Source of the DNA: an uncultured Lachnospiraceae bacterium
GTDB lineage: Bacteria > Bacillota > Clostridia > Lachnospirales > Lachnospiraceae
Length of the DNA stretch: 44,475 nt
NCBI GenBank assembly: GCA_947589095.1
Contig: CANQBX010000026.1
Coordinates: forward strand, 1-44,475
Direction of reading: 5' to 3'
Shown here one piece after another: positions 9,338 to 27,228 of this stretch. The first letter of the stretch is position 1, and each line of letters starts with the position of its first letter. The notes beneath the pieces were generated by a model. That model was given only the letters and a program-made list of their open reading frames with translations. It searched no databases and was not told the origin of the DNA. The position numbers and the translations under genes are program-made.

Positions 9338-11644
9338 TTGTATGAGATACTGAAGCAGCAGAAAAGTGAGCAGAACAAAAGTATTGATATTATTGTTCCG
9401 ATTTATAACGCATATGACGATGTGGTACTCTGCCTTAACAGCCTGTATAATTATACGGACTTGAACCGAAACCGGCTGATTCTGATTAATGATCACAGCA
9501 CGGATCCAAGAATAAAGGAGTATCTGGATAAACAGGCGCGAGAGAACATCATTGTAATTCATAATGAAGCTAATAAAGGTTTTTCAAATAATATTAATTT
9601 GGGTATTGCGCAGTCAGAGACCCATGATGTCCTGCTCTTGAATTCAGATACGATAGTAACGAGAAAATGGCTAGAGAAGATTGAGGCGTGCGCATATAGC
9701 GATCCGGCAATCGCGACAGTTACGCCATTGTCAAACAATGCATCCCTTTGCTCAGTACCTGTATTCTGCAGGGAAAACGAGGTTCCTGAAGGTTATACGA
9801 TTGATTCTTATGCGGAACTGATAGAGAAGGTCAGTTTAAGGAGATATCCTGCTATTCCTGTGGCAAATGGATTCTGCATGTATATTAAACGGGAGGTCAT
9901 CAGCAAAATCGGGTCTTTTGATGCGATGACGTTTGGAAGAGGTTATGGTGAGGAGAATGATTTCTGTCATCGGGCAGAGCAGATCGGATACCGTCATGCC
10001 ATGTGTGATGATGTATATATATATCACAGCGGTACTGAGTCATTTCAAAGTGAAGAAAAGAAACGGTACATAGAGGAACATTCCGCCATTATAAATTCCA
10101 GATATCCGCAGCAGGCCCGTGCTACCGATATACACTGCCGTGATAATCCGAATCATGCTGTATTTGATAATATCAATATTCATGCCGGGCTTGAGAATGA
10201 GAGCAAGAATATTCTGTATGTGGTTCAGCGTGATTTCAGAAAAGGTGCGTCGGATAATGTAGGAGGAACACAGCTTCATGTAAAGGATCTGACGATGGGG
10301 CTAAAAGGGACGTATAACATATTTGTTGCTGCCCGTGACAGTTCCTATCTGAATCTGACGGCTTACATCGGCGAAAAAGAGTACTTTTTTCGTTTCTATA
10401 TTGGAAATTATCGGAATTATATGTGGTTCCATGATAGAAGAATGGGAGAGATATTCGGGAAGATTCTTGACTGCTTCCAGATCGATCTTGTACATGTTCA
10501 TCATGTATATACACTGTCCTGTGAAGTTTTCTATCAGGCAGATATGAGGAAAATACCGATATTTGCAACATTGCATGATTTATATTATATATGTCCTACT
10601 GTAAAACTTCTTGATACGGAAGGTAAATATTGCGGAGGCATGGGGTATGACTGTAAAAATTGTTTAAAAAAACGGCTGGGTATTGCTTATGAAACACCGC
10701 TAATCCAGATATGGCGGAAAGAGTGCGAAAATGTTCTGCGTATGGCTGAAAAACTGTTTCTGCCATCAGAATCAGCAAAACAGATTTATCTTTCCATTTA
10801 TCCTGACCTGGCAGATAAAATGCATGTGATTGCACATGGATCGAACATAACTGAAAAACCCAGGCTTAATCACAGAGAAAGCACCTTCAATATTGCATTT
10901 ATTGGTGGGATCAGTGAGGAAAAGGGCAGCGGCGTATCCGGACAGTTGATCAGAATGAATATAAGGGGTGTGAAATGGCATCTGTTTGGAGTTTTCGATC
11001 ACGCAGATCGTTCTGTACTGAAAAACAAGAATTTTATAATGACAGGATCATATACCAGGGAAGAACTCCCGAGATTAATGGAGAAATATCAGATTGATCT
11101 GGTATGTATTTTGCCGATCATACCGGAAACTTTCTGTTATACATTATCAGAGGCGGTGGCATGTGGTGTCCCAGTGGTTGTGACAGAAATCGGAGCATTG
11201 AAGGAACGCGTATCAAATATGGAATGCGGATGGACGGTTCCTACGAGTGCATCTGCTGTAGATATTATGTCGCTTATTGAGAGAATCAAGGATCGGGGAG
11301 TGGAATATCAGGAGAAACTAGCGGCAGTTCAGCAGGTAAAATTGCGAACAGCGGCGGAGATGTGTGAATGCTATCAAAGTTATTATAAAGAAAAGCGCAA
11401 AATGAAGCGGTCAGCTTCAAAAGATTATGTCTGGATGCTGAACGCTTTTTTGATTGCCCAAAACGCTGGAAACTATGGGGGTGATGAGAGTGTGCTGCTT
11501 CGGCTTGCCGAGGCAGAAAAGGAATTGGAGGATATCCGCAATTCAACGACTTACAGAGCAATGGGAATTCTTGCGGGAATGAAGATACCATTCCGAAAGC
11601 AGATTAAGCAGATATTGGCTATGGTATATGGAAAAATAAAATAA
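9338..11644 (+). CDS. Bifunctional glycosyltransferase, GT2 plus GT4
   Basis: A 768-residue two-module enzyme. Residues about 14-245 are GT2 (DIIVPIYNAYDDVV, LILINDHST, LLLNSDT at about 99-105, GRGYGEENDFCHRA). Residues about 285-690 are GT4 (VGGTQLHVKDL, ATLHDLYYICPTVKL, GGISEEKGSG, PETFCYTLSEAVACG at about 596-610). A short helical tail ends with LEDIRNSTTYRAMG, common at the C-terminus of Firmicutes wall-polysaccharide transferases. The start is TTG at 9338: AAGGAG lies at 9321-9326, and the nearby ATG at 9342 is out of frame and hits a stop at once. Two transferase modules in one chain suggest alternating addition of two sugars. Composition turns noticeably more AT-rich from here on. Confidence 0.87.
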   Translation: MYEILKQQKSEQNKSIDIIVPIYNAYDDVVLCLNSLYNYTDLNRNRLILINDHSTDPRIKEYLDKQARENIIVIHNEANKGFSNNINLGIAQSETHDVLLLNSDTIVTRKWLEKIEACAYSDPAIATVTPLSNNASLCSVPVFCRENEVPEGYTIDSYAELIEKVSLRRYPAIPVANGFCMYIKREVISKIGSFDAMTFGRGYGEENDFCHRAEQIGYRHAMCDDVYIYHSGTESFQSEEKKRYIEEHSAIINSRYPQQARATDIHCRDNPNHAVFDNINIHAGLENESKNILYVVQRDFRKGASDNVGGTQLHVKDLTMGLKGTYNIFVAARDSSYLNLTAYIGEKEYFFRFYIGNYRNYMWFHDRRMGEIFGKILDCFQIDLVHVHHVYTLSCEVFYQADMRKIPIFATLHDLYYICPTVKLLDTEGKYCGGMGYDCKNCLKKRLGIAYETPLIQIWRKECENVLRMAEKLFLPSESAKQIYLSIYPDLADKMHVIAHGSNITEKPRLNHRESTFNIAFIGGISEEKGSGVSGQLIRMNIRGVKWHLFGVFDHADRSVLKNKNFIMTGSYTREELPRLMEKYQIDLVCILPIIPETFCYTLSEAVACGVPVVVTEIGALKERVSNMECGWTVPTSASAVDIMSLIERIKDRGVEYQEKLAAVQQVKLRTAAEMCECYQSYYKEKRKMKRSASKDYVWMLNAFLIAQNAGNYGGDESVLLRLAEAEKELEDIRNSTTYRAMGILAGMKIPFRKQIKQILAMVYGKIK

Positions 11645-11663: not shown

Positions 11664-13079
11664 ATGAAAAATAATTCAATTAGTTTATACATAAAATTGA
11701 TATTTGCTTATGCAATAATAGCGGTTTTGTTCTATATTGTGGGAGGAGAGCAATTACATTACCGTGAAAAATCCAGTGCGTTCGGCGATAAAGAAGGCGT
11801 TCTTTCCGAAGTATGTACAGGTGTAGAGTTATGTCAGGAATTTGTAGCAGATGCCGGCAGTATAAATGGGATATCTGTTGAATTTACAACATATGGGAGA
11901 GAGAATAGCGGCTCTGTTTTTATGACAATCAAAGAGAAAGATACGGAAATTATTGTAGCCCAGAATCAAGTGGATGCTGCTCTCTTAGAAAATGGAACCA
12001 CTTATGATTGGACATTAATCGAACCAATCGAAAATGCAAGAGGAAAAGCTTATCAATTAATTATAACTTCTGATTGCCCTTGGGAGCAATCGCCGACCTT
12101 ATATTACCAGGAAGCTGTGGGAGCAGGCACTTTTACGGTAAATGGGATCGAGATGCCATACGAGTTGTATTTCAGTGTGCAGGGGAAAGAACGTATCTGG
12201 TTTGGGACACACTATTGGCAATTGGTTTTAACAGTTGGTTTTATCCTGATCGTATATATGGTATGGTCAGAAATCCAAAGAAATAAAGGTCATATAACAC
12301 TGATAACATTGATAGAAACGGTGTGGGAAAAGTATCAGTTTTTGATAAAGCAATTAATTGTTCGGGACTTCAAAGTTAAATACAAAAGATCCGTCTTAGG
12401 GTATTTGTGGAGCTTTCTAAATCCCCTGCTCACAATGACTGTTCAATATATTGTCTTTTCAACAATATTTCGTCAGGGAATTGATAATTTCCGTGTATAT
12501 CTGTTAAGCGGAATAATCATGTACAATTTTTTCGCCGAAGCAATAGGACAGGGATTGAATGCGATTCTTGCCAATTCGTCTTTGATCACGAAAGTGTATG
12601 TACCAAAATATATTTATCCGGTGACAAAAGTAGTATCTTGTTCGATTAATCTGTGTATTTCACTGATACCGCTTTTGCTTGTTTCAGTCATAACAGGTGC
12701 GCCTATAACATTTGCCATGATACTGGTTCCATATGCATTGCTTTGCCTGTTGCTGTTTTGTGTGGGAATGTCATTGGCTTTGTCCTCGGCGATGGTTTTC
12801 TTTAGAGATACACAGTATTTATGGGGGATAGCCAGTATGATCTGGATGTACGCAACTCCTGTTTTTTATCCAGAATCGATTATACCGGAACAGTTCAGAG
12901 CAATCCTGGATTGTAACCCTTTATACCATATGATTAAATTTATAAGGGTGATTCTTATCGAAGGGGTATCGCCGGATCCGTTAGAATACTTGTATTGCCT
13001 GATTGCTGCAGTAGCAGCCTGTATTTTTGGAGCTTTTGTATTCAAGAAAACACAGGATAAATTTGTTCTTTATATATAG
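11664..13079 (+). CDS. Polysaccharide ABC exporter permease with extracytoplasmic N-terminal domain (Wzm-like)
   Basis: A 471-residue ABC-2 type permease. A first membrane segment lies at about residues 7-26. A predicted extracytoplasmic beta-rich domain follows at about 30-180 (TGVELCQEFV, ISVEFTTYGRENSG), then a second membrane segment at about 187-207. The standard Wzm core begins near 228 (IVRDFKVKYKRSVLGYLWS) with about six helices and the usual MYATPVFYP near the end. Wzm proteins export complete lipid-linked polysaccharide. Typical ones are about 260 residues, so the roughly 200-residue N-terminal addition is unusual. It may bind the nascent glycan outside; that is inference. The ATPase gene follows after 11 bases. 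Confidence 0.88.
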   Translation: MKNNSISLYIKLIFAYAIIAVLFYIVGGEQLHYREKSSAFGDKEGVLSEVCTGVELCQEFVADAGSINGISVEFTTYGRENSGSVFMTIKEKDTEIIVAQNQVDAALLENGTTYDWTLIEPIENARGKAYQLIITSDCPWEQSPTLYYQEAVGAGTFTVNGIEMPYELYFSVQGKERIWFGTHYWQLVLTVGFILIVYMVWSEIQRNKGHITLITLIETVWEKYQFLIKQLIVRDFKVKYKRSVLGYLWSFLNPLLTMTVQYIVFSTIFRQGIDNFRVYLLSGIIMYNFFAEAIGQGLNAILANSSLITKVYVPKYIYPVTKVVSCSINLCISLIPLLLVSVITGAPITFAMILVPYALLCLLLFCVGMSLALSSAMVFFRDTQYLWGIASMIWMYATPVFYPESIIPEQFRAILDCNPLYHMIKFIRVILIEGVSPDPLEYLYCLIAAVAACIFGAFVFKKTQDKFVLYI

Positions 13080-13090: not shown

Positions 13091-13822
13091 ATGGTGATAA
13101 AAGCAGAACATATAACTATGAAATTTCGAATGGTAAATGATAAAGTAATCAGTTTGAAAGAATACGTTATTGCAACGCTGAGCGGGAAATTAAAGTATGA
13201 AGAATTGTTGGTATTAGATGATATCAGTTTTGATATTGATAAAGGGGAAGTTGTTGGAATCATTGGGAAGAATGGGGCCGGAAAGAGCACTTTACTGAAG
13301 ATAATAGCTGGGGTTTTAAAACCAACATCTGGGAAAGTAACGGTAGAAGGAAATATTGTACCAATGCTTGAACTTGGCTCTGGCTTTGACCCTGAGCTTA
13401 GCGGAAAAGAAAATATATATTTGAATGGGGCGATTCTTGGATACAGTAAGGAATTCCTGGAGAGTAAATATGATGAAATACTGGAGTTTTCTGAACTTGG
13501 GCAGTTTATTGAAATGCCGATCAGGAACTACTCTTCAGGTATGTTAATGCGTTTGGCATTTTCTATAGCGACGGTAGTGCAGCCAGAAATTCTGATAGTG
13601 GACGAGATACTGGCGGTTGGTGATGAGGGATTTCAAAAGAAGAGCAGAGCTCGAATGATGGAACTGATGGGAGGAGGAACGACAGTTCTTTTTGTTTCCC
13701 ATAACCTTTCACAGATTGAGGAAATGTGTGACAGAGTGATATGGCTGGAAGACCATGAGATAAAACAAATCGGAGACACAAAGAAAATATGTAGTTTATA
13801 TAAAAAAATTTGGATGCAGTGA
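13091..13822 (+). CDS. Polysaccharide ABC exporter ATP-binding protein (Wzt-like, no C-terminal glycan-binding domain)
   Basis: A 243-residue ABC ATPase. Walker A is GKNGAGKST (about 60-68), the signature is YSSGMLMRLAFS, Walker B is ILIVDEILAVGD and the H-loop is LFVSHN. ELGSGFDPELSGKENIYLNG between Walker A and the signature is characteristic of the Wzt/TagH export group. Proteins of the O9a Wzt type have an extra C-terminal domain that reads the chain terminus; here the protein ends right after the nucleotide-binding domain. AGGAG at 13079-13083 precedes ATG 13091. It pairs with the Wzm-like permease just upstream. Confidence 0.93.
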   Translation: MVIKAEHITMKFRMVNDKVISLKEYVIATLSGKLKYEELLVLDDISFDIDKGEVVGIIGKNGAGKSTLLKIIAGVLKPTSGKVTVEGNIVPMLELGSGFDPELSGKENIYLNGAILGYSKEFLESKYDEILEFSELGQFIEMPIRNYSSGMLMRLAFSIATVVQPEILIVDEILAVGDEGFQKKSRARMMELMGGGTTVLFVSHNLSQIEEMCDRVIWLEDHEIKQIGDTKKICSLYKKIWMQ

Positions 13823-14990: not shown

Positions 14991-15030
14991 TAATCAGGAC
15001 TATTTTAATGCACTCTTAAGGAGGAAACCT

Positions 15031-15468: not shown

Positions 15469-16004
15469 AACTGAGACCGCTAGAGGATAAAGATATCTGT
15501 TATATTTTGGAATGGATGCATGATCCTGTGATTAATAAGGTATTTAAGGCTGACTTCTCCGCGTATGATGAGAATAAGGTCAAAGTGTTTATCGATGGGG
15601 CGCTTTCTGAGGTAAACAGGCATTATGCGTGTGTAAATGATCAAGATGAATACCTTGGAACAGTGAGCCTTAAGAATATCAACTATATCGAGAAGAATGC
15701 GGAATATGCAGTAAGCTTTAGAAAAAGCGCCCAAGGAACGGGCGCTTCATTATTTGCTACGAAAGAGATACTAAAGATAGCGTTTTATGAATTGGGGTTA
15801 TATCGGGTCTATCTGAATGTGATTGGATCAAATCAGAGGGCTAATGCCTTTTATAAAAAGGCCGGTTTTATTTATGAGGGGTCATTTCGCAGGCATATTA
15901 AGATAAATGGCGTGCTGGAAGATCTGAACTGGTATGGGATTCTGAAAGAAGAATTTGAGAAGGGAGAAAAAGACTATGAGAAGAATACCATTTGCAACAT
16001 TTGA
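15465..16004 (+). CDS. GNAT-family N-acetyltransferase, probably for the 3-amino sugar
   Basis: A 179-residue GNAT enzyme of the RimJ/RimL-like type: [17 protein letters not shown] at the start, [10 protein letters not shown]-type acetyl-CoA loop ([16 protein letters not shown], about 86-101), and [17 protein letters not shown] near the end. It lies between the ketoisomerase and aminotransferase genes, so the likely substrate is the 3-amino group of the dTDP-3-amino-3,6-dideoxyhexose made by its neighbours. Many fdt/qdt loci use a left-handed-helix acetyltransferase (FdtC/QdtC) instead; a GNAT here would be a non-homologous replacement. It overlaps the previous gene by 4 bp and the next by 29 bp. 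Confidence 0.82.
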
Positions 16005-17070: not shown

Positions 17071-17079
17071 GGCATGAAG

Positions 17080-18609
17080 ATGAGTACGAAAGCGATTGAA
17101 TATATTGTTGTACAGGCAGGCGGCAAGGGAACCCGGTTACAGTACCTGACGGAGAATCGTCCCAAGGCATTAGTTCCTGTTGATAATCGGCCGATGCTAT
17201 TCCACTTGTTTGAAAAGTTTCCTGAGAAGCGGTTTATTATTATAGCCGACTATAAAGCGGATGTGATGGAGAAATACCTGTCTGCGTTTGCTAAAGTTAA
17301 GTTTTTGATTGTCGGCACAGATGGGAAGAACGGAACCTGTTCTGGTCTTAAAAATGCCATAGAGAAGATACCAGATCAGAAGTCTTTTATGCTGATTTGG
17401 TCGGATTTGGTATTGCCAGATGAATTCAAACTGCCAGAGAAAGGGCAGAACTATGTGGGTCTGTCGAAAAATTTCCGTTGTAGATGGCGTTATGAGAATG
17501 GACAATTTGCCGAAGTTCCATCTGAAACAAATGGCGTAGCAGGATTATTTGTTTTTAAGGACAAGACATTTCTGGAAGATGTTCCTTCAGAAGGAGAACT
17601 GGTAAGATGGCTCGGCGTCCGAAACGATATCCAATGGACGGAACTTCCATTATATCGGACAAAAGAGTTTGGTCTGCTATCTGAATACCAGGAATATAGC
17701 AAGACCCCGATTGCAGGAAGATGCAGGCCCTTTAATAAATTGACTGTCAATGATGACATTATCATTAAGGAACCCGCTGATAAACAGGGAGCAGAATTGG
17801 CGGAAAAGGAAAAGGCATGGTATCGATTTGTTAAGGATAAGGGCTATGGGAAAATTCCATATATTTATTCATTCGATCCGTTCAGCATGGAACGGATTCA
17901 TGGGAAGAACATTTTTGAGTATACAGACATATCTTTTGAAAATAAGAAGGCTATATTATCAGAACTAATTGAAAATCTGAAGGAACTCCATAGTTTGGGA
18001 TGGCAGAATACGGATTATTTCAGCATTCGGGAAGCGTACTATAATAAGACGCTCGCCCGGTTGGATAAAGTACGATCTCTGGTTCCTTTTGCGAATGAGA
18101 AATACATTCGGGTTAATGGAAGAAACTGCAGGAATGTGTTTTTCTTTAAAGAACAACTATACGAAAAGATTGCTAATTATCATTGTCCGTATTTTACGGT
18201 AATTCACGGCGATAACACGTTTTCAAATATGCTTTTGGATAAGGATATGCATCCTGTGCTGATCGATCCCAGGGGCTATTTTGGATTTACCAGAATTTAC
18301 GGAGACCCTGTATATGATTGGGGAAAGTTATATTATTCGCTTGTAGGAAACTATGATCAGTTTAATCTGAAACGCTTCCGCCTGCATATATCAGAAGAAG
18401 AGATTCATCTGGAGATTGACTCAAATGGATGGGAAGATTTGGAAGGCGTATTCTTTGATCTTTTGGGAGATCAGGTAAAGAAGGCTGATATAAAGCTAAT
18501 CCATGCCGTTATATGGCTTTCTTTAACTACCTATGCTTGGGAGGATTATGATTCTATCTGCGGCGCTTTTTATAACGGTCTTTACTATTTGGAAGAAGCA
18601 TTGTCCTAA
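17080..18609 (+). CDS. Fusion of sugar-1-phosphate nucleotidyltransferase and APH/choline-kinase-like kinase
   Basis: About 509 residues in two modules. The N-terminal half (about 1-215) is an NTP-transferase: VVQAGGKGTRLQYLTENRPK and a catalytic-aspartate segment MLIWSDLVLP. The C-terminal half (about 230-509) is an aminoglycoside-phosphotransferase/choline-kinase fold with the catalytic loop VIHGDNTFSNMLLD and metal-binding LIDPRGYFG. One chain could thus phosphorylate a small sugar or alcohol and activate it as an NDP derivative. Together with the next two genes (SIS isomerase, HAD phosphatase) it recalls GDP-heptose routes (GmhA, HddA, GmhB, HddC), except that the kinase is APH-type rather than GHMP. 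A CDP-choline-like activation (LicA plus LicC) is another reading. ATG 17080 is better spaced from GAGG (17069-17072) than ATG 17074. Confidence 0.83.
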   Translation: MSTKAIEYIVVQAGGKGTRLQYLTENRPKALVPVDNRPMLFHLFEKFPEKRFIIIADYKADVMEKYLSAFAKVKFLIVGTDGKNGTCSGLKNAIEKIPDQKSFMLIWSDLVLPDEFKLPEKGQNYVGLSKNFRCRWRYENGQFAEVPSETNGVAGLFVFKDKTFLEDVPSEGELVRWLGVRNDIQWTELPLYRTKEFGLLSEYQEYSKTPIAGRCRPFNKLTVNDDIIIKEPADKQGAELAEKEKAWYRFVKDKGYGKIPYIYSFDPFSMERIHGKNIFEYTDISFENKKAILSELIENLKELHSLGWQNTDYFSIREAYYNKTLARLDKVRSLVPFANEKYIRVNGRNCRNVFFFKEQLYEKIANYHCPYFTVIHGDNTFSNMLLDKDMHPVLIDPRGYFGFTRIYGDPVYDWGKLYYSLVGNYDQFNLKRFRLHISEEEIHLEIDSNGWEDLEGVFFDLLGDQVKKADIKLIHAVIWLSLTTYAWEDYDSICGAFYNGLYYLEEALS

Positions 18610-18632
18610 ATACAAAATCAGAGGAGGAGAAC

Positions 18633-19211
18633 ATGAGAGACTATTTTGAGCAGACATTAAAAATACTTTCAGATTCATTGCGCGGAATTAATGAGGAAGA
18701 CTTCAGCCGTCTATTGGATGAATGTGAACAGACCTTGAAGCAGGGGAGAAAGATCATTGTGAGTGGCTTGGGAAAGAATGTGCCGATATGTGATAAATTC
18801 GTCGGTACCATGCTTTCTTTGGGCCTTGACGCCAATTTTTTGCATACGAATTCAGCGGTACATGGCGATATGGGGATGGTTCACCCGGGCGACCTGGTTA
18901 TTGTCCTGACGAAAAGCGGCTCCACGTTGGAATCTATATATCTTGTAGATGTGCTGCAGCCGAAACAGTGTAATTTATGGCTGCTCACGTTTAATGAAAA
19001 AGGGAAACTTTGTTCAAAAATAAGCAAGAAAATTGTGGTTCCGCTAGAGCATGAAGGAGATATGTGGAATATCATGCCTAACAACTCAACGATACTTAAT
19101 CTAATTGTTCTTCAGACTCTGTCTATGAAGCTTGCCCAGAGAATGGGGATAAGTCTGGAGGATTTTAAGGTCAACCATCCCGGAGGGGCGATTGGGGAGC
19201 AGCTGCGATGA
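18633..19211 (+). CDS. SIS-domain phosphosugar isomerase (KpsF/GutQ-like without CBS domains)
   Basis: A 192-residue SIS protein: GRKIIVSGLGKNVPICDKFV at the start of the fold, DLVIVLTKSGSTLES for the phosphate-binding serine loop, and a C-terminal FKVNHPGGAIGEQL that matches D-arabinose-5-phosphate isomerases (KpsF/KdsD/GutQ). Those usually have two CBS domains after the SIS fold; here the protein ends at that point. It probably interconverts a ketose and aldose phosphate, feeding the upstream kinase-nucleotidyltransferase. Its stop overlaps the HAD gene start (ATGA). Substrate (arabinose-5-P, sedoheptulose-7-P or another) cannot be fixed from sequence. Confidence 0.85.
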   Translation: MRDYFEQTLKILSDSLRGINEEDFSRLLDECEQTLKQGRKIIVSGLGKNVPICDKFVGTMLSLGLDANFLHTNSAVHGDMGMVHPGDLVIVLTKSGSTLESIYLVDVLQPKQCNLWLLTFNEKGKLCSKISKKIVVPLEHEGDMWNIMPNNSTILNLIVLQTLSMKLAQRMGISLEDFKVNHPGGAIGEQLR

Positions 19212-19588
19212 CAGGAAATAATAGTTTATGCCTTTCAGCTCTGGGGCATACCTGGATTCTGGATCTTGATGGAACTATTTTGATACATAATGGATATAAA
19301 ACAAATGGCATAGATGAATTTGTTCCCGGAGCCAAGGCGTTTTTGGAATCTCTGCCGGAAGAAGATTGCATTGTCTTTATCACTTCACGGAAGAAAGAAT
19401 ACCAGAAACAGACAGAAACTTTTTTAAAGGATAATGGAATCCGTTATAATTGTGTCATATATGAGGCCCCGTATGGCGAGAGAATATTGATTAATGACAG
19501 TAAACCCTCTGGTCTGCAAATGGCTTATGCTTGCGCTGTCAGGAGAGATACGTTTGATATAAAATGGGTAATTAGTCAAGAAATGTAA
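19208..19588 (+). CDS. Small HAD-family phosphatase of a sugar-activation pathway
   Basis: A compact 126-residue HAD protein. Motif I is WILDLDGTIL, motif II is FITSRKKEY, and the motif IV region is GERILINDSKPSG. The cap domain is minimal, as in C0-type phosphatases acting on accessible phosphosugars. Translation is coupled to the SIS isomerase by ATGA. In a heptose-like scheme it would remove the phosphate added at the non-anomeric position before nucleotidyl transfer, the role GmhB plays; that assignment is by analogy. Confidence 0.82.
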   Translation: MTGNNSLCLSALGHTWILDLDGTILIHNGYKTNGIDEFVPGAKAFLESLPEEDCIVFITSRKKEYQKQTETFLKDNGIRYNCVIYEAPYGERILINDSKPSGLQMAYACAVRRDTFDIKWVISQEM

Positions 19589-19614
19589 GAATAACTGAGC
19601 GAAAAGGAGAAGCC

Positions 19615-20523
19615 ATGCAAGATGAAGAATTGCGTATAGCGCGATTTAACAGAAAGATCAAAAAAATAGATTCTTCTTATATCATTGTAACAATGCCGCA
19701 AGGTTTGGGGGATATCTTGTTTTTCTGTATTTTTTCAAAGGAATACCGCAGATTGCATCCCCAAAATAAATTAGCGCTGCTTGTTACAAAGCGCCATTTT
19801 TTAAACTTGGCGGAATTGTACAGGGATTGTTTTGATAAAATTCTATATGTAGATGCAGATATATTTTCGAAAATTGATAGTTCTCGATTGACATTTTACT
19901 ATCATCTTATATATGACGAGAAAAATCCCCAGGTACACTTGGCAGATGCCGTCAGAAATGCGATTGGTGTAGGAAATAACGTTAATCCATACTATCCTGT
20001 AATATATGTCAGCGCGAAAGAAAAGAGGCGTATACAGAAACTGGGCGTGCAGCGGGGAAGAACGGTACTGATTTCTCCGGAAGCTGTATCCTGCAGTATT
20101 GACGCTTCCGAGGAAGACTGGTTGAATATTGCGGATATGTTGGAGAAAAAGGGATTTAGGGTTTTCTTTAACTGTGGTAATAACTTGATGTATGGAACTT
20201 ATCCAAAGGTATTCTTGTCTTTAAGGGAAACATTAATTTTTACGCATTATGCGGGATATTTTATCGGTTTCAGAAGCGGATTATGCGACGTGATATCAGC
20301 ATTTTCAGACTGCAGACAGATTATCGTATATCCTAATAATAAAAGGCGGGGAGAATTTCCCGCAGTTAAAGATTTTGATATAAATCCGAATGTGAAATAC
20401 ATGGAATACTGCAGTCTAAAGCGCGCATTTCCTGACAGGATTATTACGGAGTTTATCTACGAAAAAGGCAGAATGGCAGCTGCGATAGAGAGGGAGTTTG
20501 GCAATGGCGAAAATATTGGTTAG
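19615..20523 (+). CDS. Putative GT-B glycosyltransferase, distantly GT9/heptosyltransferase-like
   Basis: A 302-residue protein that starts with IIVTMPQGLGDILFFCIFSK, the same strand and glycine loop arrangement as GT9 heptosyltransferases. It has a second Rossmann-like half (TVLISPEAVSC, EEDWLNIADMLEKKGFRVFF) and a donor-site motif YFIGFRSGLCDVISAFS. This supports a transferase using an NDP sugar. Its place directly after the heptose-like activation genes fits, but the similarity is weak and from motifs only. AAGGAG precedes ATG 19615, and the 3' end overlaps the next gene by 20 bp. Confidence 0.6.
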   Translation: MQDEELRIARFNRKIKKIDSSYIIVTMPQGLGDILFFCIFSKEYRRLHPQNKLALLVTKRHFLNLAELYRDCFDKILYVDADIFSKIDSSRLTFYYHLIYDEKNPQVHLADAVRNAIGVGNNVNPYYPVIYVSAKEKRRIQKLGVQRGRTVLISPEAVSCSIDASEEDWLNIADMLEKKGFRVFFNCGNNLMYGTYPKVFLSLRETLIFTHYAGYFIGFRSGLCDVISAFSDCRQIIVYPNNKRRGEFPAVKDFDINPNVKYMEYCSLKRAFPDRIITEFIYEKGRMAAAIEREFGNGENIG

Positions 20524-22045
20524 TTATTTCCGTTCGGATGAAATGTCTGTTAATGATACGTTGTGCTTCTGGGATTCATTTTTTAAGGAATTAACAGACT
20601 GCGGCAACGATGTATTGGCAATCAATAATGCTTACTATGGTATTTTCAACCCTAATCGGACGGACAATATCGGCATAAAGAACTATTTACTGAATGAAGC
20701 AATTAAATTCGCGCCGGATTTGATCATAACATTCAACCACCGGATCTTACAGGAGATCCTGGATGAGTTTAAGGATGTTCCTGTGGTGATCTATGACGGA
20801 GATGAATTGCGCTTTTTCTCAGATCTGGATGTGATCAAGGAGAACATTGAGCGGTATAAAGTATTTTCTATCGTAGAAGATTGGAGAAAGGATTATCTGG
20901 AATTTGGATTTAAGGACGATCAGATTTTTTATCTCCCTCCTGGAACTTCCATAAGAAAAGACGATAATATGCCCCAGACAATGAATATCTCTTTTCTGGG
21001 ACAACGGCGATTCTTCTTGAGTTCTAAATTGAAGGACTGCATACGGGAAGGACGGGATTTGGATAAGTTTTATGATATGTATCTTGATTTCGTAAGAACC
21101 CATGACTATTCTTATGAAGACATTTATAAAAGAAATATGGCGTATCGTTCGGATATCCAGATGACGGATGCGGATTTATGGCCTTTATTTGATCAGAGTT
21201 ATTTGATCTTTGCCAATCTGCTTGACCTTGGACTCCATCTGGGGGGACATGAGGCAGGATGGCGCGATATTGTGGATTTTGTTCCACAGATAGCGCTGAC
21301 TCATAATAAAGCCAAGGTATTCTCTTTGAAAGAGAATCAGGATTTTTATAATTCTTCCATTTTATCCTTGTGTCCGATGCATCCGCAGGCAAAAGGAAAG
21401 GGTTATTCCTGGCGGTGCTATGACATTATGGCAAGCAACGCATGCCTGGTATCATCCTATTCCTCTGAGTTGAAAGAGGAAACGAAGGGGATGGTTGACC
21501 TACCGATGTTCCATACTCCAGCGGAAGCGCGGGAAATATGTAAGGATCTTTTGGAGAATCCATCGAAAAGAAAAGAGATTGTTCTGGCCTCTCAGGAATA
21601 TATTGATAAAAATGGCCGTTGGATCGATCGGATCAGGAAGATGGAGCAGATATTGGATATGAAATTAATCTGCGAAGGGAAAAAGGGAGAGTTTAAAAAG
21701 CTTACCTGGCATCCGGCAGAGTGGGACATTGTATATCCACAAAGACAGACAATTGTAGAAACTTCACAGCCATTCAAAAAGGAACGTCTGCTTTCGTTGG
21801 GAGACAGAATCAGAAATAAAGTAGTAAATCCGCAGTTATTGATATCGTTACTTATCGCGGTTTTGCTGAACATATCATTATTAGCAGGAGCAAAAAATGG
21901 ACTGTTTTCTTCAGCGTTTACACCTTTATTTATAGAGGGCCTGACTTGGATGACCGCAGTTCTAACGATTGGGTTGGCGATATTATTGGAATTATGTGTT
22001 ATATATAAGTACCTTTACAAAATTGTGAGAAAGTTGTTGAGTTAG
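20504..22045 (+). CDS. CgeB-like glycosyltransferase with C-terminal membrane anchor
   Basis: A 513-residue protein: ILVSYFRSDEMSVNDTL, PDLIITFNHRI and VVIYDGDELRFFS in the first half, then ISFLGQRRFF and a second-half motif GKGYSWRCYDIMASNACLVS typical of CgeB/Glyco_trans_1_2 transferases (about 305-325). The last 80 residues contain two hydrophobic segments (about 434-452 and 470-495) that would anchor it to the membrane. ATG 20504 follows GAGAGGGAG at 20487-20495; the TTG at 20498 lies too close to that site. Donor and linkage unknown. Confidence 0.76.
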   Translation: MAKILVSYFRSDEMSVNDTLCFWDSFFKELTDCGNDVLAINNAYYGIFNPNRTDNIGIKNYLLNEAIKFAPDLIITFNHRILQEILDEFKDVPVVIYDGDELRFFSDLDVIKENIERYKVFSIVEDWRKDYLEFGFKDDQIFYLPPGTSIRKDDNMPQTMNISFLGQRRFFLSSKLKDCIREGRDLDKFYDMYLDFVRTHDYSYEDIYKRNMAYRSDIQMTDADLWPLFDQSYLIFANLLDLGLHLGGHEAGWRDIVDFVPQIALTHNKAKVFSLKENQDFYNSSILSLCPMHPQAKGKGYSWRCYDIMASNACLVSSYSSELKEETKGMVDLPMFHTPAEAREICKDLLENPSKRKEIVLASQEYIDKNGRWIDRIRKMEQILDMKLICEGKKGEFKKLTWHPAEWDIVYPQRQTIVETSQPFKKERLLSLGDRIRNKVVNPQLLISLLIAVLLNISLLAGAKNGLFSSAFTPLFIEGLTWMTAVLTIGLAILLELCVIYKYLYKIVRKLLS

Positions 22046-22068
22046 GATAATACGAGGGAATACGCGGC

Positions 22069-25000
22069 ATGGAAAATAACTGGATACTTAATGAATTACG
22101 GGGGGGTACGATCCAGTGGGATAGCTGGAATCCTAGAATGAGAAGAATATTTGATTTGGTTTATCCGGATATTATGAATCATGAATATACGTCTGTTATG
22201 GACTTGGGTGCCGGTCAGATGTATTTAAAAGATCTATTACCTTCGGATATTGCATATTATCCGGTAGATTATCTGGCACGGTGTCCGGAAACTTTAGTAT
22301 ATGATTTTAATAAGCATGAGTTTCCAGAACAGAAAGCTGATCTGGTTGTGGCCGCAGGTATTATGCATTATGTTCAGGATACGGACTGGTGGCTGAAGGA
22401 GATACAGGAGCACTGTGGCAAGACATTTGTGCTTACTTATACGCCAGTGGAATTGGAAGGAGATATAAAGAAACGGGAAGAACTTTTTCTATGGGGGAAT
22501 CATTACAGTTATACTGAGTTATATGAGTGTCTGATAAAGCATGGTTTTCTTCCCGTACATGTCGAAAAGGGCAATTATGATAATAAGTGGACAGAGCATG
22601 TTATTCTGGTTCTAAAGAAATCAGAGGCAGCCAATCTGCCTGATTTGGCTTCGTGCAGTGGATGCGGCATCTGTGCAATGGAATGTCCGGCAAGCGCCAT
22701 ACAGATGCGAATGGATAGAGAAGGCTTTGCACGTCCTGAATTTGACAGCGAAAAATGCATTGGATGTCAGAAATGTATGAGGAAATGCCCTTCTTTGAAT
22801 ATAGATGCGTCTAATCAGATGAACCCTGATACATACGCTTTTTGGGCCGATGAGGATGTCCGTTCAAAAAGTTCATCCGGCGGTGCCTTTTCGGTATTGG
22901 CAGATGCGGTATTAAAAAAGGGAGGATATGTATGCGGTGCAGCCTATGATAAATACAGGCATTCTATTTCACATATGATTGTGCAGGACGAGGCGGGATT
23001 ATGCAGGCTGAGAGGCTCCAAATATGTTCAGAGTGATATTCAGCCTGTGCTGGAGCCGATAAAGCGGTTACTGGAAACGCAGGGTGCTCCTGTATTATTT
23101 ACCGGGTGTCCTTGTCAAATTGCCGCTCTGAAGGCATATTTAGGAAAATCCTATGATCAATTATATCTGGCAGATCTTTTATGTGCTGGTGTGACATCGC
23201 CACAGGTTTTTACGGAATATCTGGAGGATAGTTATGATTTAGACAGAATAAGTAATGTAAATTTCAGGACGAAACAAAATGGTTGGGATCCTTTTTGGCT
23301 GACGGTCACTTATGATAATGGGGAACAATCCGTTGTAGGAATCGCGACGGATCCGATGGAGCAGCTTTTCCACAGCCTTTCTGGGATGCGTCAGAGCTGT
23401 TATGCTTGTGTGTTTTCAGCCTTCCCCAGACAGGGAGATCTCACGATGGGAGATTTCTGGGGAATCCAGAATTATGATGCTGTCTTGGATGACAACAAGG
23501 GGACAAGCTTTGTCAGTGTGAATAATGAAAAAGGAAGAAAATTGTATGAGATGCTGGAGCAAAATGCTGCGATGATAAAGCCCGTTCCGTGGCAGTATAC
23601 AGGAACGAACCGCCTTTTTCCTTTTTTGAGTGAACGCAGCAAGATGCCGGAAACCAGGGAATATTTTTATCATTTAAGAGAAAAGCGTTCATTTGGAGAA
23701 GCTGTAAACAGGGCGCTTCAAATGAAATTTGACGTTGGCGTCGTCTGCAATTGGAGCGGCGACAATTATGGGGCCCAGATCACCCAGTATGCGTTTTATC
23801 ATGTTCTTACAAGAATGGGGCTGGAGCCGATCATGATCGAGCGGCCTAAGATGCCCTGGCCGGGCGGAAATGACTCCAGAGCGGGACTGTTCCGAATGAA
23901 TCCGTATCCAAGTTATGCGATGTGCCCGCTTTTTAGTGATATTGAAGAAATGCGGGCGATCAATAATTACGCTGATACGTTTATTGTACCATCCGATCAG
24001 CTATGGAATGCGTTATTTGCTGAAAAGGATCTGTTTGCGTTGGGGTACATCGCGAATAATAAAAAGAAGATATCCTATGCAACTTCTTTTGGATGTGATC
24101 CGCATAATTGGAGCGAGGATGAGCGGGCCCGCGAAGCCTTCTTTCTCAAGCAGTTTGACGCTATTTCCGTGAGAGAAGACAGCGGGATAAGAATTCTTCG
24201 AGAGTCGTTTGGCGTTTCGGATGCGGTACAGACATTGGATCCGGTGTTTCTGTGCGAGGATGATTTTTATGATGAGTTGTGTAAGAAATCCCGCTATTCT
24301 GAGAACAGGGGACATATTGCCGCGTTTATCCTGGATCCGAACCCTGAAAAGGCAGAACTTATTCGGAAATTGAGCAGAAAGACAGGAAAACCAAGCTTCC
24401 AGATCACAGATTCATATAAGCGAGAGGAAAGGGCAAAACAATGGGATTTGCCGGTAGAAATGAATGTATTTACGGAAGATCTGCTGGCGGTTATTAAAAA
24501 CAGTGATTATGTTATTACAGATTCCTTCCATGGCGTGTGTTTTGCCGTATTATTTAGAAAACCGTTTTTAGCTATTGTGAATCAGCAGCGTGGGATGGCG
24601 AGATTCCTTTCTATTCTGCGCTTATTTCATCTGGAAGATCGCCTGATATTTGCAGTAGAGGAAGCGGATACGGATGTGCTTGAAAAGCCGGTTGATTATT
24701 CCCTTGTGGAAGCGGTTTTGCACAAAGAACGGAAAAAGTCTCTGGAATGGCTGAAAAATGCACTTCAAATGCCAAAGAAAGCGGATCTGACAGCTTATGA
24801 TATTCTGGATGAGAAATTATATCAAAGGGGAAAGGATTTAGAAAAGTATAAAGAACAGAATAAGGGGATATTTGCTGGAATTGACAATCGATTGGTTAAT
24901 ATCGATAAAGAATTGTTGCGGGTTAATCAAAATACAGATGCTGTCAATTCGGAACTGTTGAGGGTTAACCAAAATATAGATGCTGTCAGTTCAGAGTTAC

Positions 25001-25611
25001 TGAGGATCAACAAGAACACGGATTTAATTGATTCTGAGTTGCTGAGGATAAATCAGAATGCTGATGCGGTTAATCGAGAACTACTAAGTGTAAATAAGAG
25101 ACAGGACGCGACAAACAAAGAATTATTAAGAATTAATCAAAATACAGATGCCGTCAACTCGGAACTGTTGAGGATTAATCAAAACATGGATGCTGTTAGT
25201 TCAGAGTTACTGAGAATCAACAAGAACACAGATTTAATTGATGCTGAGTTGCTGAGGATAAATCAGAATGCAGATGCAGTGAACGCAGAATTATTAAGAA
25301 TTAATCAGAGAGGTGATGCATTTAACGAGGAGATTTTGAAGCTTAGAAACGTAATTGATGAATATAATTCTTCCTTTTTATTAACTAAAAAGGAGTTTGA
25401 AGAGTTGTATTCTATTCAGGAAAATGAGCTGGAATTGTATAGAAATACTTTAGAGAAACAGACAAAGAGAATCCGCGAAATGTCATCGAAAATAGAAATG
25501 CTGTCCGACAGGCTTGAAAGATTGGAAAAGTCTTTGTGGCAACGATTTGGAAGGCTTATTCTGTGGATTCCGCAAAAAATATTGAATGCTATAGAAGCGT
25601 TAACAAATTAA
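22069..25611 (+). CDS. Multidomain fusion: methyltransferase, 2x[4Fe-4S], FrhB-like, pyruvyltransferase-like, repetitive coiled coil
   Basis: One 1180-residue frame with five regions. (1) About 1-185: class I SAM methyltransferase (VMDLGAGQMYLKDLL, LVVAAGIMHYVQD). (2) About 195-242: two ferredoxin CxxCxxCxxxC motifs (C196-C206, C230-C240). (3) About 250-530: coenzyme-F420-hydrogenase beta-subunit-like module (SSSGGAFSVLADAV, FTGCPCQIAALKAYL, RQGDLTMGDFWGI). (4) About 553-870: polysaccharide pyruvyltransferase-like GT-B (GDNYGAQITQYAFYHVL, SYATSFG, VITDSFHGVCFAVLF). (5) About 905-1150: coiled coil with ten 14-residue repeats, ending in a basic amphipathic segment (LWQRFGRLILWIPQKIL). FrhB-like and pyruvyltransferase genes often adjoin in Clostridia polysaccharide loci; joining both to a methyltransferase and coiled coil is unusual. 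In an ABC-exporter operon this suggests a chain-end modifier with a ruler. The module calls are motif-based and the ruler role is inference. Confidence 0.85.
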   Translation: MENNWILNELRGGTIQWDSWNPRMRRIFDLVYPDIMNHEYTSVMDLGAGQMYLKDLLPSDIAYYPVDYLARCPETLVYDFNKHEFPEQKADLVVAAGIMHYVQDTDWWLKEIQEHCGKTFVLTYTPVELEGDIKKREELFLWGNHYSYTELYECLIKHGFLPVHVEKGNYDNKWTEHVILVLKKSEAANLPDLASCSGCGICAMECPASAIQMRMDREGFARPEFDSEKCIGCQKCMRKCPSLNIDASNQMNPDTYAFWADEDVRSKSSSGGAFSVLADAVLKKGGYVCGAAYDKYRHSISHMIVQDEAGLCRLRGSKYVQSDIQPVLEPIKRLLETQGAPVLFTGCPCQIAALKAYLGKSYDQLYLADLLCAGVTSPQVFTEYLEDSYDLDRISNVNFRTKQNGWDPFWLTVTYDNGEQSVVGIATDPMEQLFHSLSGMRQSCYACVFSAFPRQGDLTMGDFWGIQNYDAVLDDNKGTSFVSVNNEKGRKLYEMLEQNAAMIKPVPWQYTGTNRLFPFLSERSKMPETREYFYHLREKRSFGEAVNRALQMKFDVGVVCNWSGDNYGAQITQYAFYHVLTRMGLEPIMIERPKMPWPGGNDSRAGLFRMNPYPSYAMCPLFSDIEEMRAINNYADTFIVPSDQLWNALFAEKDLFALGYIANNKKKISYATSFGCDPHNWSEDERAREAFFLKQFDAISVREDSGIRILRESFGVSDAVQTLDPVFLCEDDFYDELCKKSRYSENRGHIAAFILDPNPEKAELIRKLSRKTGKPSFQITDSYKREERAKQWDLPVEMNVFTEDLLAVIKNSDYVITDSFHGVCFAVLFRKPFLAIVNQQRGMARFLSILRLFHLEDRLIFAVEEADTDVLEKPVDYSLVEAVLHKERKKSLEWLKNALQMPKKADLTAYDILDEKLYQRGKDLEKYKEQNKGIFAGIDNRLVNIDKELLRVNQNTDAVNSELLRVNQNIDAVSSELLRINKNTDLIDSELLRINQNADAVNRELLSVNKRQDATNKELLRINQNTDAVNSELLRINQNMDAVSSELLRINKNTDLIDAELLRINQNADAVNAELLRINQRGDAFNEEILKLRNVIDEYNSSFLLTKKEFEELYSIQENELELYRNTLEKQTKRIREMSSKIEMLSDRLERLEKSLWQRFGRLILWIPQKILNAIEALTN
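24910..25329 (+). repeat. Ten in-frame 42-bp repeats encoding a 14-residue coiled-coil unit
   Basis: Residues 948-1087 of the fusion protein are ten copies of a unit like ELLRINQNTDAVNS, with an eleventh degenerate copy after them. Each unit is two heptads, with hydrophobic a/d positions at L2, I/V5, residue 9 and V/I12. Units 1-5 and 6-10 match in order, so a 210-bp block (24910-25119) has been duplicated as a whole (25120-25329). Near-identical DNA in tandem makes the unit number prone to change by slippage or recombination without loss of frame. Confidence 0.92.
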
Positions 25612-25713
25612 TTTCTTTGCAATATGTTGGTATAAAGGTATCTCAGAAGTTTGTAAAATAGAAAATTTCGGGATTCTGTCTGTGGAATAGAGAGAAAGGA
25701 AAATAAATAATAT

Positions 25714-27228
25714 ATGCGACTTAATAAGGAACTAAAAACAGTAATGGTAAGTACATTTTTTTGGGGATTATTAGCACATGCAATGATGTTTTTAGAATTT
25801 TATCCATCTCATGATTCATTGAGCATTGTTTCAGAGGATGCAATTTGGGAAATCACTTTAGGTAGGTTTTGTCAACCGTTATATCTTTTGTTAAGAGGAA
25901 ACATTAATTCACCGTGGCTTGTTGGACTTTTGTCCTTGATATATCTATCGTTTTCGTTGTTCCTCATTATACGGCTGTTTGATATAAAAAGTACGGCTAT
26001 CATTTTTGTGTTGAGTGGCTTTTTTGTTACAAATCTGCCACTTATTGTTCTTTATGCGACGTATATAAATTGGGCAGATATTTACATGCTGGCCCTTTTA
26101 TGTTGCTGTGCTGGGGTATATCTTGTTGAAAAATATCAGAGAGGATTTATTCCTGCAGTATTGTTGCTTTCCGTTTCAATGGGCTTATATCAGAGTTATA
26201 TTTCGGTAGCTATTGGATTGATGATTATTCTTGTTTTTATTAATGCAATTATTGAGAAATCAGTATTAAAAATATTAAAAAAGGGAGTACGTTTTATTGC
26301 TTGTTTAATATGTAGTGCAATATTTTATATTATATTTGTGAAAATATCCTTGTGGGTGGCACAGGTAGACCTGACAGATGGTTATAATGGAATGCTTCAG
26401 CTAATGCGAAGTGATTTGCATACATTAATAAATCTGATACCGGGAGTATATAAACATTTTTTTGATTACTATTTTGGGAGAACAGGTTATAATACGCAGA
26501 TAGTTCAAATTTGTTTTTCGTTATTGATAATTATAGCACTCTATTTATGGATTAAATATATGCTAAATAGACAAGTAATTATGTCCCAAATCGTCATTTC
26601 GGTATTTATGGTAGTTATTTTGCCCCTTGGCATCGACTTTATTTATATAGTTTCGACTGGATGGGCACATTTACTTATGCTTTATAGTTTTACGTTAATA
26701 TATTTATTGTTTTTGGTTCCAATCGATAAAATGAAACAGATAGACACATTAAGAAATAATAGTGGATTGAAAATACTATATGGAATATGCATTGGGTTAA
26801 GTGCTGTTTTAATTTGGCATAATATTACATATTCGAATGGTGCTTACTATTATAAGAATATTATTGGAAGAACAAATGATGCATATATGGTTTCTATGCT
26901 TATTGAATTAGAGAATAATGATGAGTATGTAATTGGACAGACTCCTGTAGCAATCATAGGAAATTTTGAGGAATCATTTATGGCGGGAGATCGAAGGGGA
27001 TTTGAAGAATATAGAGGTATTTTAGGTATGCATAATACCTCCGTTACGTACTTAGGTTCATTGGGGTATTATTGTACTTATGTTGTAGGAAAGCCGATTA
27101 ATCTTATTTACGATGAAGGTTGGATTGATGAAATATCCAGAAAACAAGAAGTACAGAACCTCCCGACATTTCCGCATAAAGGGTATTGTTGTATTGTAGA
27201 CGGTGTTATGGTGATAAAAATGTCATAA
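25714..27228 (+). CDS. Polytopic membrane glycosyltransferase, GtrII-like
   Basis: A 504-residue protein with about ten hydrophobic segments, and a soluble C-terminal tail of about 130 residues that contains a few hydrophobic stretches. The N-terminal part has the GtrII (Glucos_trans_II) look: FYPSHDSLS after the first helix with an acidic residue in the first loop, then LGRFCQPLYLLLRG and SPWLVGLLSLIYLSFSL. GtrII-type proteins use polyprenyl-phosphate-linked sugar outside the membrane to decorate a polymer. A GtrB-like enzyme two genes on would supply that lipid-linked sugar. Codons are markedly more AT-rich than upstream genes, suggesting separate acquisition of this module. The ribosome site (AAAGGA, about 14 bases off) is weak. 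Confidence 0.8.
   Translation: MRLNKELKTVMVSTFFWGLLAHAMMFLEFYPSHDSLSIVSEDAIWEITLGRFCQPLYLLLRGNINSPWLVGLLSLIYLSFSLFLIIRLFDIKSTAIIFVLSGFFVTNLPLIVLYATYINWADIYMLALLCCCAGVYLVEKYQRGFIPAVLLLSVSMGLYQSYISVAIGLMIILVFINAIIEKSVLKILKKGVRFIACLICSAIFYIIFVKISLWVAQVDLTDGYNGMLQLMRSDLHTLINLIPGVYKHFFDYYFGRTGYNTQIVQICFSLLIIIALYLWIKYMLNRQVIMSQIVISVFMVVILPLGIDFIYIVSTGWAHLLMLYSFTLIYLLFLVPIDKMKQIDTLRNNSGLKILYGICIGLSAVLIWHNITYSNGAYYYKNIIGRTNDAYMVSMLIELENNDEYVIGQTPVAIIGNFEESFMAGDRRGFEEYRGILGMHNTSVTYLGSLGYYCTYVVGKPINLIYDEGWIDEISRKQEVQNLPTFPHKGYCCIVDGVMVIKMS

Follow-up and report, generated by a model that had tools for sequence, protein, structure and literature searches.

The window analyzed here is a stretch of 44,475 nucleotides from an uncultured Lachnospiraceae bacterium. 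On its forward strand, positions 22069 to 25611 form a single unbroken reading frame, from ATG to stop, for a protein of 1180 amino acids. From the N to the C terminus, the protein has a methyltransferase (MT) domain, a 2x[4Fe-4S] domain, an FrhB-like domain, a PS_pyruv_trans (PSPT) domain, a heptad coil, and an amphipathic tail. The features of the protein and its gene cluster are the following.

9338..11644, + strand: GT2+GT4 fusion, candidate polymerase; by eye, its C-terminal part is a coil with a similar tail (Pfam, sequence)
11664..13079, + strand: Wzm-like permease that carries, at the N terminus, a TM (judged by eye) and an extra domain of ~150 aa (Pfam ABC2_membrane, residues 228-431)
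13091..13822, + strand: Wzt-like ATPase, 243 aa, without the Wzt_C cap-binding domain (Pfam)
17074..19588, + strand: conserved trio of a nucleotidyltransferase+APH-like kinase, a KpsF/GutQ-like isomerase, and a HAD-like protein
22069..25611, + strand: 1180-aa protein, MT-Fer4-FrhB-PSPT-coil-tail (ORF, Pfam domains, three collinear relatives, AlphaFold2 model)
22069..22608, + strand: SAM methyltransferase-like domain, residues 1-180 (sub-threshold Pfam, invariant residues; low model confidence)
22636..22803, + strand: 2x[4Fe-4S] ferredoxin-like domain, residues 190-245 (Pfam; 8 Cys kept in 56 fusion rows)
22804..23613, + strand: FrhB-like domain, probable flavin reductase, residues 246-515 (Pfam; C349, C372, C444, and C447 kept in 56 fusion rows)
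23701..24783, + strand: PSPT-fold transferase with a noncanonical active site, residues 545-905 (Pfam; A569 and S819 in place of Asp and Arg, R702 and H821 kept)
24841..25524, + strand: heptad coil, 228 aa, hand-set bounds (periodicity; helices in the model)
24910..25329, + strand: ten 14-residue units, residues 948-1087
25525..25608, + strand: amphipathic C-terminal tail (hydrophobic moment 0.67, charge +2; low model confidence)

Domains of the protein and its gene neighborhood

Fer4 (196-242), FrhB_N (256-328), FrhB_C (342-499), and PS_pyruv_trans (566-838) all exceed the Pfam gathering cut-offs, which bears out the claim of an earlier, sequence-only reading that redox and pyruvyltransferase-like units are combined in one protein. 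The AlphaFold2 model is mostly of high confidence over residues ~190 to 905 (mean, 77.2; pTM, 0.68), and three collinear relatives from other genomes align over residues 11 to 1051, 4 to 960, and 18 to 964. The 1180-residue multidomain protein is confirmed as real.

The methyltransferase named in that reading stands in part. Methyltransf_23 matches the N-terminal domain only below threshold (E value of 4.6e-4, 20.4 bits against a cut-off of 27), and AlphaFold2 models the region poorly, with many residues below 50, but the SAM-motif residues are conserved, with D45, G47, G49, D67, D79, and G97 invariant in six aligned rows (the window protein and five relatives). An MT profile matched class I MTs in the PDB weakly (best E value, 0.0012), and there was no WbdD chain among its 17 PDB matches (to an E value of 10). 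The FrhB-like domain has PDB relatives in 8rja, 9tn7, and 7npa. F420 itself is an unlikely partner of the FrhB part because the models of CofD (TIGR01819) and CofH (TIGR03551) match nothing at an E value of 0.001 in the bacterium's own draft genome (97.64% complete), although uptake of F420 is possible; in control runs, the two models gave matches in 6 genomes and 11 genomes out of 14, with 3 above the cut-off in each case.

The long regular coil is predicted to form, as had been proposed: the 3.5-residue periodicity of residues 925 to 1152 has a z score of 15.7, reached by 0 of 2000 shuffles, and the single-chain AlphaFold2 model has helices over most of residues 909 to 1179 (block pLDDT, 41 to 82). 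It would be ~34 nm long if it were one continuous helix. Within the repeat region, a block of 195 nt is repeated at an offset of 210 nt with 86% identity, probably through a recent five-unit duplication. The C-terminal segment, described earlier as basic and amphipathic, is amphipathic, but its net charge is only +2, against +5 or +6 in the tails of five relatives (no random control).

Upstream of the gene, nine ORFs away and on the same strand, are the genes of Wzm and Wzt, and the gaps between neighboring ORFs are ≤26 bp. Terminator-like sites in positions 11000 to 26500 exceed chance (17 against 10.1 expected; sd, 3.0), so that what had been called a Wzm/Wzt operon is a compact same-strand cluster but unproven as a single transcript. 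The extra domain of Wzm, which probably lies outside the membrane, gave no meaningful match in Pfam and PDB searches (best E value, 1.1, to an antibody); the same N-terminal extension is found in loci L146 and L153. The Wzt proteins of clusters L067 and L153 are 72% and 67% identical to that of the window, and both clusters have counterparts of the trio at 49 to 61% identity. Our scan of neighbors for coils and tails missed the coil of the GT2+GT4 fusion, and it also misses L067's own coil.

Distribution of the architecture and its exporter

We found four proteins with the full architecture: those of the window and Anaerosporobacter (both Lachnospiraceae), of Mailhella (Desulfovibrionaceae), and of genome G784, of the same phylum. 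Both Wzm and Wzt are encoded in all four clusters. Related proteins that lack the MT are common, and Wzm or Wzt lies within 10 kb in 15 of 77 such loci (many contigs are short). Exporter association differs between the two groups with a Fisher p of 0.002, or 0.010 without the window; both values are subject to shared ancestry among the proteins and to search distances that were unequal. A predominance of homologues away from ABC exporters, which would have counted against the sequence-only reading, is seen in the wider family but not for the full architecture. Scans with PF01061 and PF01943 spotted Wzm in genomes G426, G434, and G447. Relative L037 has a coil and tail and no Wzm or Wzt in the flanks compared. 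Across 75 family proteins, coil content by a lenient score was unlinked to exporters (p of 1.0, 0.16, and 0.40 at three thresholds), and "coil implies ABC exporter" was rejected as a family-wide rule.

The head domains of the four full-architecture proteins align over 88 to 100% of their length at 24 to 46% identity, and their coils measure 228, 101, 81, and 61 aa (hand-set bounds), so that coil length varies from ~60 to 228 residues while the head stays constant. A catalytic head, an extended coil, and a C-terminal amphipathic segment, the features of a terminator, are all there, although the heptad periodicity of the relatives is modest (z scores of 2.1, 2.7, and 3.7; 3.7 in L037). A coil called by eye in L074 was discarded, its periodicity being absent (z score of -0.3). 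The data support a picture in which a head sits on a rod of variable length and is encoded near Wzm/Wzt. The Wzt proteins of the four clusters are 243, about 244, 246, and 252 aa long, and none has a Wzt_C cap-binding domain (judged by Pfam in the window and L228 and by length in the other two). Characterized terminated systems carry such a domain on Wzt (PMC11231755). Relative L125, without the MT, does have Wzt_C.

These observations bear on whether the protein acts at the chain end, as the sequence-only reading had it, or along the chain. In the latter case, it would methylate and pyruvylate or lactylate the repeat units, the coil and tail would only gather enzymes at the membrane, and there would be neither cap nor ruler. 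The missing cap-binding domain suits such a decorator, as do the absence of an ABC exporter within 10 kb at most loci of the wider family and the diversity of C-terminal modules (ILEI-like, basic tails, coil); other cluster enzymes also end in coils or tails, namely a second PSPT protein of L096 and, by eye, the GT2+GT4 fusion of the window. The constant presence of Wzm/Wzt beside the MT-bearing proteins and the strictly regular window coil with its repeated block argue against it, and we regard a decorator as a serious possibility, if on the doubtful side.

Altered active site and a lactyl-ether proposal

The PF04230 profile matches the PSPT domain with an E value of 2.1e-29. For ketal pyruvyltransferases, catalytic residues have been proposed in Pvg1p and WbbZ (PMC4872226, PMC10629545). 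Where the characterized ketal enzymes have Asp and Arg, the window protein has NxGA (Ala569) and Ser819, and it retains R702 and H821. Two of the three residues proposed as catalytic are absent from the window PSPT and from all 56 aligned fusions, in which the Asp occurs in 0 of 56 rows and Ser replaces the PEP-phosphate Arg in 56 of 56. The pyruvyl (ketal) chemistry proposed earlier is doubtful because of these losses of the NxGD Asp and the PEP-phosphate Arg. They also weigh against a ketal-pyruvate cap like that of Klebsiella O1, in which FrhB would carry out a separate redox step, such as keto-sugar reduction, and the exporter would need no cap; there is precedent in WbbZ, which puts a pyruvate on the chain end, and in the O1/O2 transporter, which is without a cap-binding domain (PMC10629545, PMC11231755). 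FrhB-PSPT fusions occur in both domain orders, which suggests coupled steps, and we consider a ketal cap improbable.

The two domains are also found as unfused neighbors. On a Klebsiella aerogenes plasmid, an FrhB gene directly precedes a PSPT gene of the Ser-type class, and two PSPT genes of an E. coli plasmid flank a nitroreductase gene, the farther of the two (~4.7 kb off) belonging to that class. For a census, 60 places were chosen by hand, not at random, out of ~150 entries that were themselves part of a longer list (8 in the upper half and 52 mainly stand-alone frames lower down), yielding 65 PSPT ORFs, 60 of them aligned. FrhB neighbors were not significantly commoner beside Ser-type PSPTs in this set (12/32 against 5/28, p of 0.15), and the Ser type was rejected as proof of FrhB pairing. 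When the set was divided by the Asp after the fact, the counts were 1/15 against 16/45 (p of 0.046), with L217, one of the 15, misaligned and L179, L198, L203, and L205 of the Arg class gapped or shifted at that position.

MurA transfers an enolpyruvyl group and MurB then reduces it in a flavin-dependent step, yielding a lactyl ether. We propose that PSPT and FrhB make a lactyl (1-carboxyethyl) ether in the same way; the likeness is one of proposed logic, and no sequence relation is claimed. The "Olac" of a table of Klebsiella K antigens we tentatively take to be lactyl, after the title of a cited K22 paper, although the text accompanying that table writes "O-lactose." By column count in Table 1, Olac marks only K22, K37, and K66 (PMC6856556). 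Klebsiella types with a pyruvyltransferase gene but without pyruvylation are K8, K22, K37, and K66, and the genes of the 79 loci, counted for the set as a whole, include 2 nitroreductases and 1 coenzyme F420 hydrogenase (PMC4616057). For a 1-carboxyethyl sugar as the product, this is an indirect correlation. In open-licence literature, we found neither an assigned function for FrhB+PSPT nor enzymes for lactyl ethers.

A further reading is that at least one head domain no longer catalyzes and the protein mainly organizes an assembly complex. The fused PSPT of L096, which lacks both Arg and His (the second PSPT-coil protein there keeps both), shows that decay can occur, but the SAM motif, cluster cysteines, R702, and H821 are kept in the window and L067, and such a scaffold seems highly improbable. 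A frameshift or assembly error fusing adjacent genes, which the sequence-only reading had named as a hazard and for which we found no point in favor, is ruled out, with next to no residual probability, by the three collinear relatives in other genomes.

Proposed function and known systems

We tentatively favor, at somewhat below even probability, a membrane-tethered, oligomeric methyl/lactyl-ether enzyme on a coil that caps the end of a Wzm/Wzt-exported glycan. The enzyme would serve a cell-surface glycan of the Lachnospiraceae bacterium with two head activities, a SAM methyltransferase and a PSPT transferase that would attach a group derived from pyruvate to a hydroxyl of a sugar. The Fe-S/FrhB flavin reductase would then reduce this group to a 1-carboxyethyl (lactyl) ether rather than leave a pyruvate ketal. 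The tail may anchor a coil of evolvable length, so that the head would contact the chain away from the polymerase at the membrane; the most likely target would be the non-reducing end, hence a cap and termination, with the coil as spacer. We infer the lactyl product, the methyl acceptor, the oligomer, the membrane contact, the action at the chain end, and the ruler function.

A bolder extension, which we think unlikely, is that the missing lactyl ether synthases of bacterial polysaccharides are FrhB and PSPT, fused or paired, with MurA/MurB chemistry on a PSPT fold and an iron-sulfur flavin reductase, and that with an MT on a tunable coil, in at least four genomes, they form a new class of Wzm/Wzt terminator-ruler without a Wzt cap-binding domain, the extra, probably outward-facing Wzm domain (three clusters) perhaps recognizing the cap. 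If the favored reading is right, length control by coil and terminator would extend beyond Gram-negative LPS to gut Lachnospiraceae, with new head chemistry and without a cap-binding checkpoint. The same evidence would also suggest, in testable form, which enzymes make the lactyl ethers found in numerous bacterial glycans and what role the common pair of FrhB and PSPT plays in polysaccharide loci.

The closest known layout is that of WbdD of E. coli O9a/O8, with which the window protein shares an N-terminal methyltransferase, a coil, a C-terminal amphipathic helix or segment, and the Wzm/Wzt pathway (PMC3482155, PMC11231755). The WbdD-like layout proposed earlier therefore holds for head, coil, tail, and exporter but not for the kinase, replaced by Fer4-FrhB-PSPT (a Pfam scan of the 1180 aa found no kinase domain), nor for the Wzt cap-binding domain; the window type occurs both in Lachnospiraceae and in a desulfovibrio relative. 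Klebsiella O7 ORF6, O4 ORF7, and O12 WbbB are likewise terminators of ABC pathways in which varied heads are borne on a coil, although their head enzymes differ and the O4 and O12 Wzt proteins are stated to have a cap-binding domain (PMC11231755). WbbZ of Klebsiella O1 belongs to the same pyruvyltransferase superfamily as the PSPT and works with an exporter similarly free of a cap-binding domain, but it keeps NxGD and both Arg positions, and its account, in the excerpts of PMC10629545, mentions no redox unit, which the window protein has. Unfused FrhB and PSPT pairs of polysaccharide loci have the same two domains as neighbors, but in separate proteins. If the favored reading is right, the methyltransferase/redox/PSPT head on a coil is a new head chemistry for a known type of coil-bearing terminator.

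Architecture and distribution

The 1,180-residue product of positions 22069 to 25611 (plus strand) is encoded by an uninterrupted frame and carries, by Pfam, Fer4, FrhB_N, FrhB_C, and PS_pyruv_trans (PSPT) domains in that order, followed by a periodic coil, which confirms the multidomain protein proposed from sequence alone. Residues 1 to 180 gave a weak Pfam match to a methyltransferase (MT), and the supporting residues are invariant across six aligned rows. The AlphaFold2 model was mostly confident from about residue 190 to 905 and poor for the MT domain. Because MT was thinly represented in the underlying alignment, where three stand-alone MT sequences were also poorly positioned, we did not count the poor score against this domain. 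The coil came out as long helices, as the sequence-only reading would have it, with only modest confidence.

In the 392 genomes of the window's order, 89 had a match at an E value of 1e-30, including about a dozen Fer4-FrhB-PSPT fusions, in some of which PSPT comes first. Among the matches listed, none except the window covered MT, all starting at or after query residue 159. In a named genome collection at least 573 candidates were confirmed, and the best 80 of them represent 79 loci. Most of these loci encode Fer4-FrhB-PSPT fusions, some separate genes, and two include MT: L067 (uncultured Mailhella, Desulfovibrionaceae, 1,035 residues) and L096 (Anaerosporobacter faecicola, Lachnospiraceae, 1,016 residues). 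Searching 398 genomes of the phylum with an MT profile (E value of 1e-15) gave the window, a full-architecture protein of 975 residues (L229 in genome G784), and an MT in a 282-residue frame. The window MT alone matched proteins without FrhB or PSPT in three other genomes of the 392 (E value of 1e-8). With the Mailhella protein as the query, 5 of 150 genomes of its order matched at 1e-40, and MT was covered by no copy other than its own. Because so few matches cover MT in the order, the phylum, the collection, and Mailhella's order, the full architecture is uncommon, with a scattered occurrence.

Other Fer4-FrhB-PSPT proteins have different partners. In L073 (9971 to 12763), an ILEI (FAM3)-like domain with a subthreshold score (residues 782 to 840) replaces the coil; similar ends were seen by eye in L070, L071, L075, L078, L082, L088, and L102, L073 alone having been scanned. 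A second Mailhella protein (L230, 1184 to 5023) has a fused radical-SAM-like domain and what looks by eye like a coil followed by a basic tail. N-terminal GT2 and GT4 domains occur in L107 and L129, respectively.

Heptad periodicity in the window coil is strong (z of 15.7, reached by 0 of 2,000 shuffles). Within the coil there are 14-residue units, ten in all, and at the DNA level a block of 195 nt recurs 210 nt further at 86% identity. Among the four full-architecture proteins, 88 to 100% of the length of the head domains (MT, Fer4, FrhB, and PSPT) can be aligned at 24 to 46% identity, and the coils measure 228, 101, 81, and 61 residues with hand-set bounds (by a score-based run, the first three measure 234, 152, and 113). 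A constant head with a coil of varying length looks like a variable spacer. The relatives show modest periodicity (z of 2.1, 2.7, and 3.7), and none was seen in L074, a relative that lacks MT, adjoins the exporter genes Wzm/Wzt, and has a tail like the window's. The tails are amphipathic (moments of 0.67 to 0.78, given without a random control; charges of +2 to +6), with no conserved sequence in the alignment.

Chemistry of the PSPT-FrhB pair

Characterized ketal pyruvyltransferases are described as sharing NxGD, R-xxx-(S/T), and a His, and in Pvg1p, D106, R217, and R337 are proposed to be catalytic, D106A being almost inactive (PMC4872226, PMC10629545). Counting from the chain length places R337 at the Arg of TDRLHA in Pvg1p. 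The window PSPT has NxGA instead of NxGD and TDSFHG at the TDRLHA site; Escherichia coli WcaK has NxGD and TRLHS. Across 56 aligned fusion rows, Asp is found in none and Ser replaces Arg in all, while R702 is kept in 54 and H821 in 55. In a wider hand-picked sample, Asp occurs in 0 of 32 enzymes without the Arg versus 15 of 28 of the Arg or Lys type. Since both residues are replaced here and in the fusions, the window PSPT probably does not work as an ordinary ketal pyruvyltransferase, and its product is likely to be something other than a pyruvyl ketal. The fused Anaerosporobacter PSPT (L096, 9947 to 12994) has lost Arg702 and His821; a separate PSPT-coil protein, encoded upstream (4811 to 6292) beyond four intervening genes, retains them.

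The presence of FrhB suggests a reduction step. MurA and then MurB make a lactyl ether by enolpyruvyl transfer and flavin-dependent reduction. In Table 1 of PMC6856556, by column count, Olac appears only in Klebsiella K22, K37 (GlcA-Olac), and K66 (Glc-Olac); the text has "O-lactose." In PMC4616057, K8, K22, K37, and K66 are listed as lacking pyruvylation despite carrying pyruvyltransferase genes, although K8 has pyruvyl-galactose in the PMC6856556 table. Two nitroreductases and one coenzyme F420 hydrogenase are counted over 79 Klebsiella loci as a whole (PMC4616057). The K22 and K37 loci are reported to be identical except for one frameshift (PMC3857182); for K22, the title of a cited paper refers to 4-O-[(S)-1-carboxyethyl]-glucuronic acid. 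On an E. coli plasmid a nitroreductase gene lies between two PSPT genes, the farther of which was aligned. From its column label, we take the K66 Olac to be lactyl. The Klebsiella data offer a correlation in line with a lactyl-ether reading of PSPT plus FrhB.

Gene neighborhood

The window cluster encodes Wzm, Wzt, glycosyltransferases, an FdtA/aminotransferase set, and a nucleotidyltransferase-kinase, isomerase, and HAD trio. Identities to the window are 72% for Wzt (over 159 residues), 43% for Wzm, and 57, 59, and 49% for the trio in L067, and 67, 40, and 58, 59, and 61% for L096, whose cluster was read from contig G447:C34 as L153. G784 shares Wzm (42%) and Wzt (52%), and the window-type trio is missing from its 22.5-kb contig. 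The expected co-occurrence with Wzm/Wzt held for all four full-architecture proteins and less so elsewhere, with a Wzm or Wzt match within 10 kb at 15 or more of 77 other loci, a lower bound since many contigs end early (Fisher P of 0.002, or 0.010 if the window is excluded; three of the clusters are related by descent, and in L096 the exporter is more than 10 kb away).

The trio (17074 to 19588) comprises a nucleotidyltransferase-APH fusion, a KpsF/GutQ-like SIS protein whose length leaves no room for CBS domains, and a small HAD-like protein. Together they may form a route to NDP-D-arabinose. Counterparts occur in Mailhella and Anaerosporobacter, with related sets in L115, L131, and L137. 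By eye, the L067 and L096 clusters also have genes resembling heptose-activation genes. Wzm has, at 11664 to 12365, an N-terminal TM and an extra domain of about 150 residues with no Pfam match and no credible PDB match; it is shared with L146, L153, and probably L151/L079, and an 811-residue membrane protein in L148 begins with a stretch similar by eye. Two NusG-like genes (2544 to 4310), the second below the Pfam cutoff, head the glycan gene run and are possibly LoaP-type antiterminators. Near the contig start are the following:

697-723 and 2159-2185: perfect 27-nt inverted repeats flanking a tyrosine-recombinase gene (904-2034)
787-759, minus strand: promoter-like site (11/12) inside the repeats, directed away from the glycan operon

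The segment from 697 to 2185 resembles an invertible switch encoding its own recombinase, perhaps in the OFF state here; two promoter-like sites were seen in the stretch versus 1.9 by chance. No perfect repeat pair surrounds the L153 integrase.

Capping, decoration, and known terminators

Known coil terminators are described as having a varied catalytic head at the coil's far end (PMC11231755), and the layout of the window protein fits this. In terminated systems, Wzt carries a cap-binding domain, whereas Wzt here does not. Chain ends are nevertheless modified without that domain in Klebsiella O1 (terminal pyruvate, which hardly affects length) and Vibrio cholerae O1 (terminal methyl), according to PMC10629545; a capping role is thus plausible and a length-setting role weaker. 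We tentatively favor a head with methyl and lactyl-ether chemistry on a variable coil, probably acting at the chain end. A slightly less probable alternative is a repeat-unit decorator that would modify the glycan along the chain as neither cap nor ruler. The lack of periodicity in L074 and the E. coli alignment, in which the aligned PSPT is not the neighbor of the nitroreductase, slightly lowered the former and raised the latter. The proposed analogy with WbdD of E. coli O9a fails in family membership and export checkpoint (Wzt without the cap-binding domain) and holds in layout and Wzm/Wzt setting.
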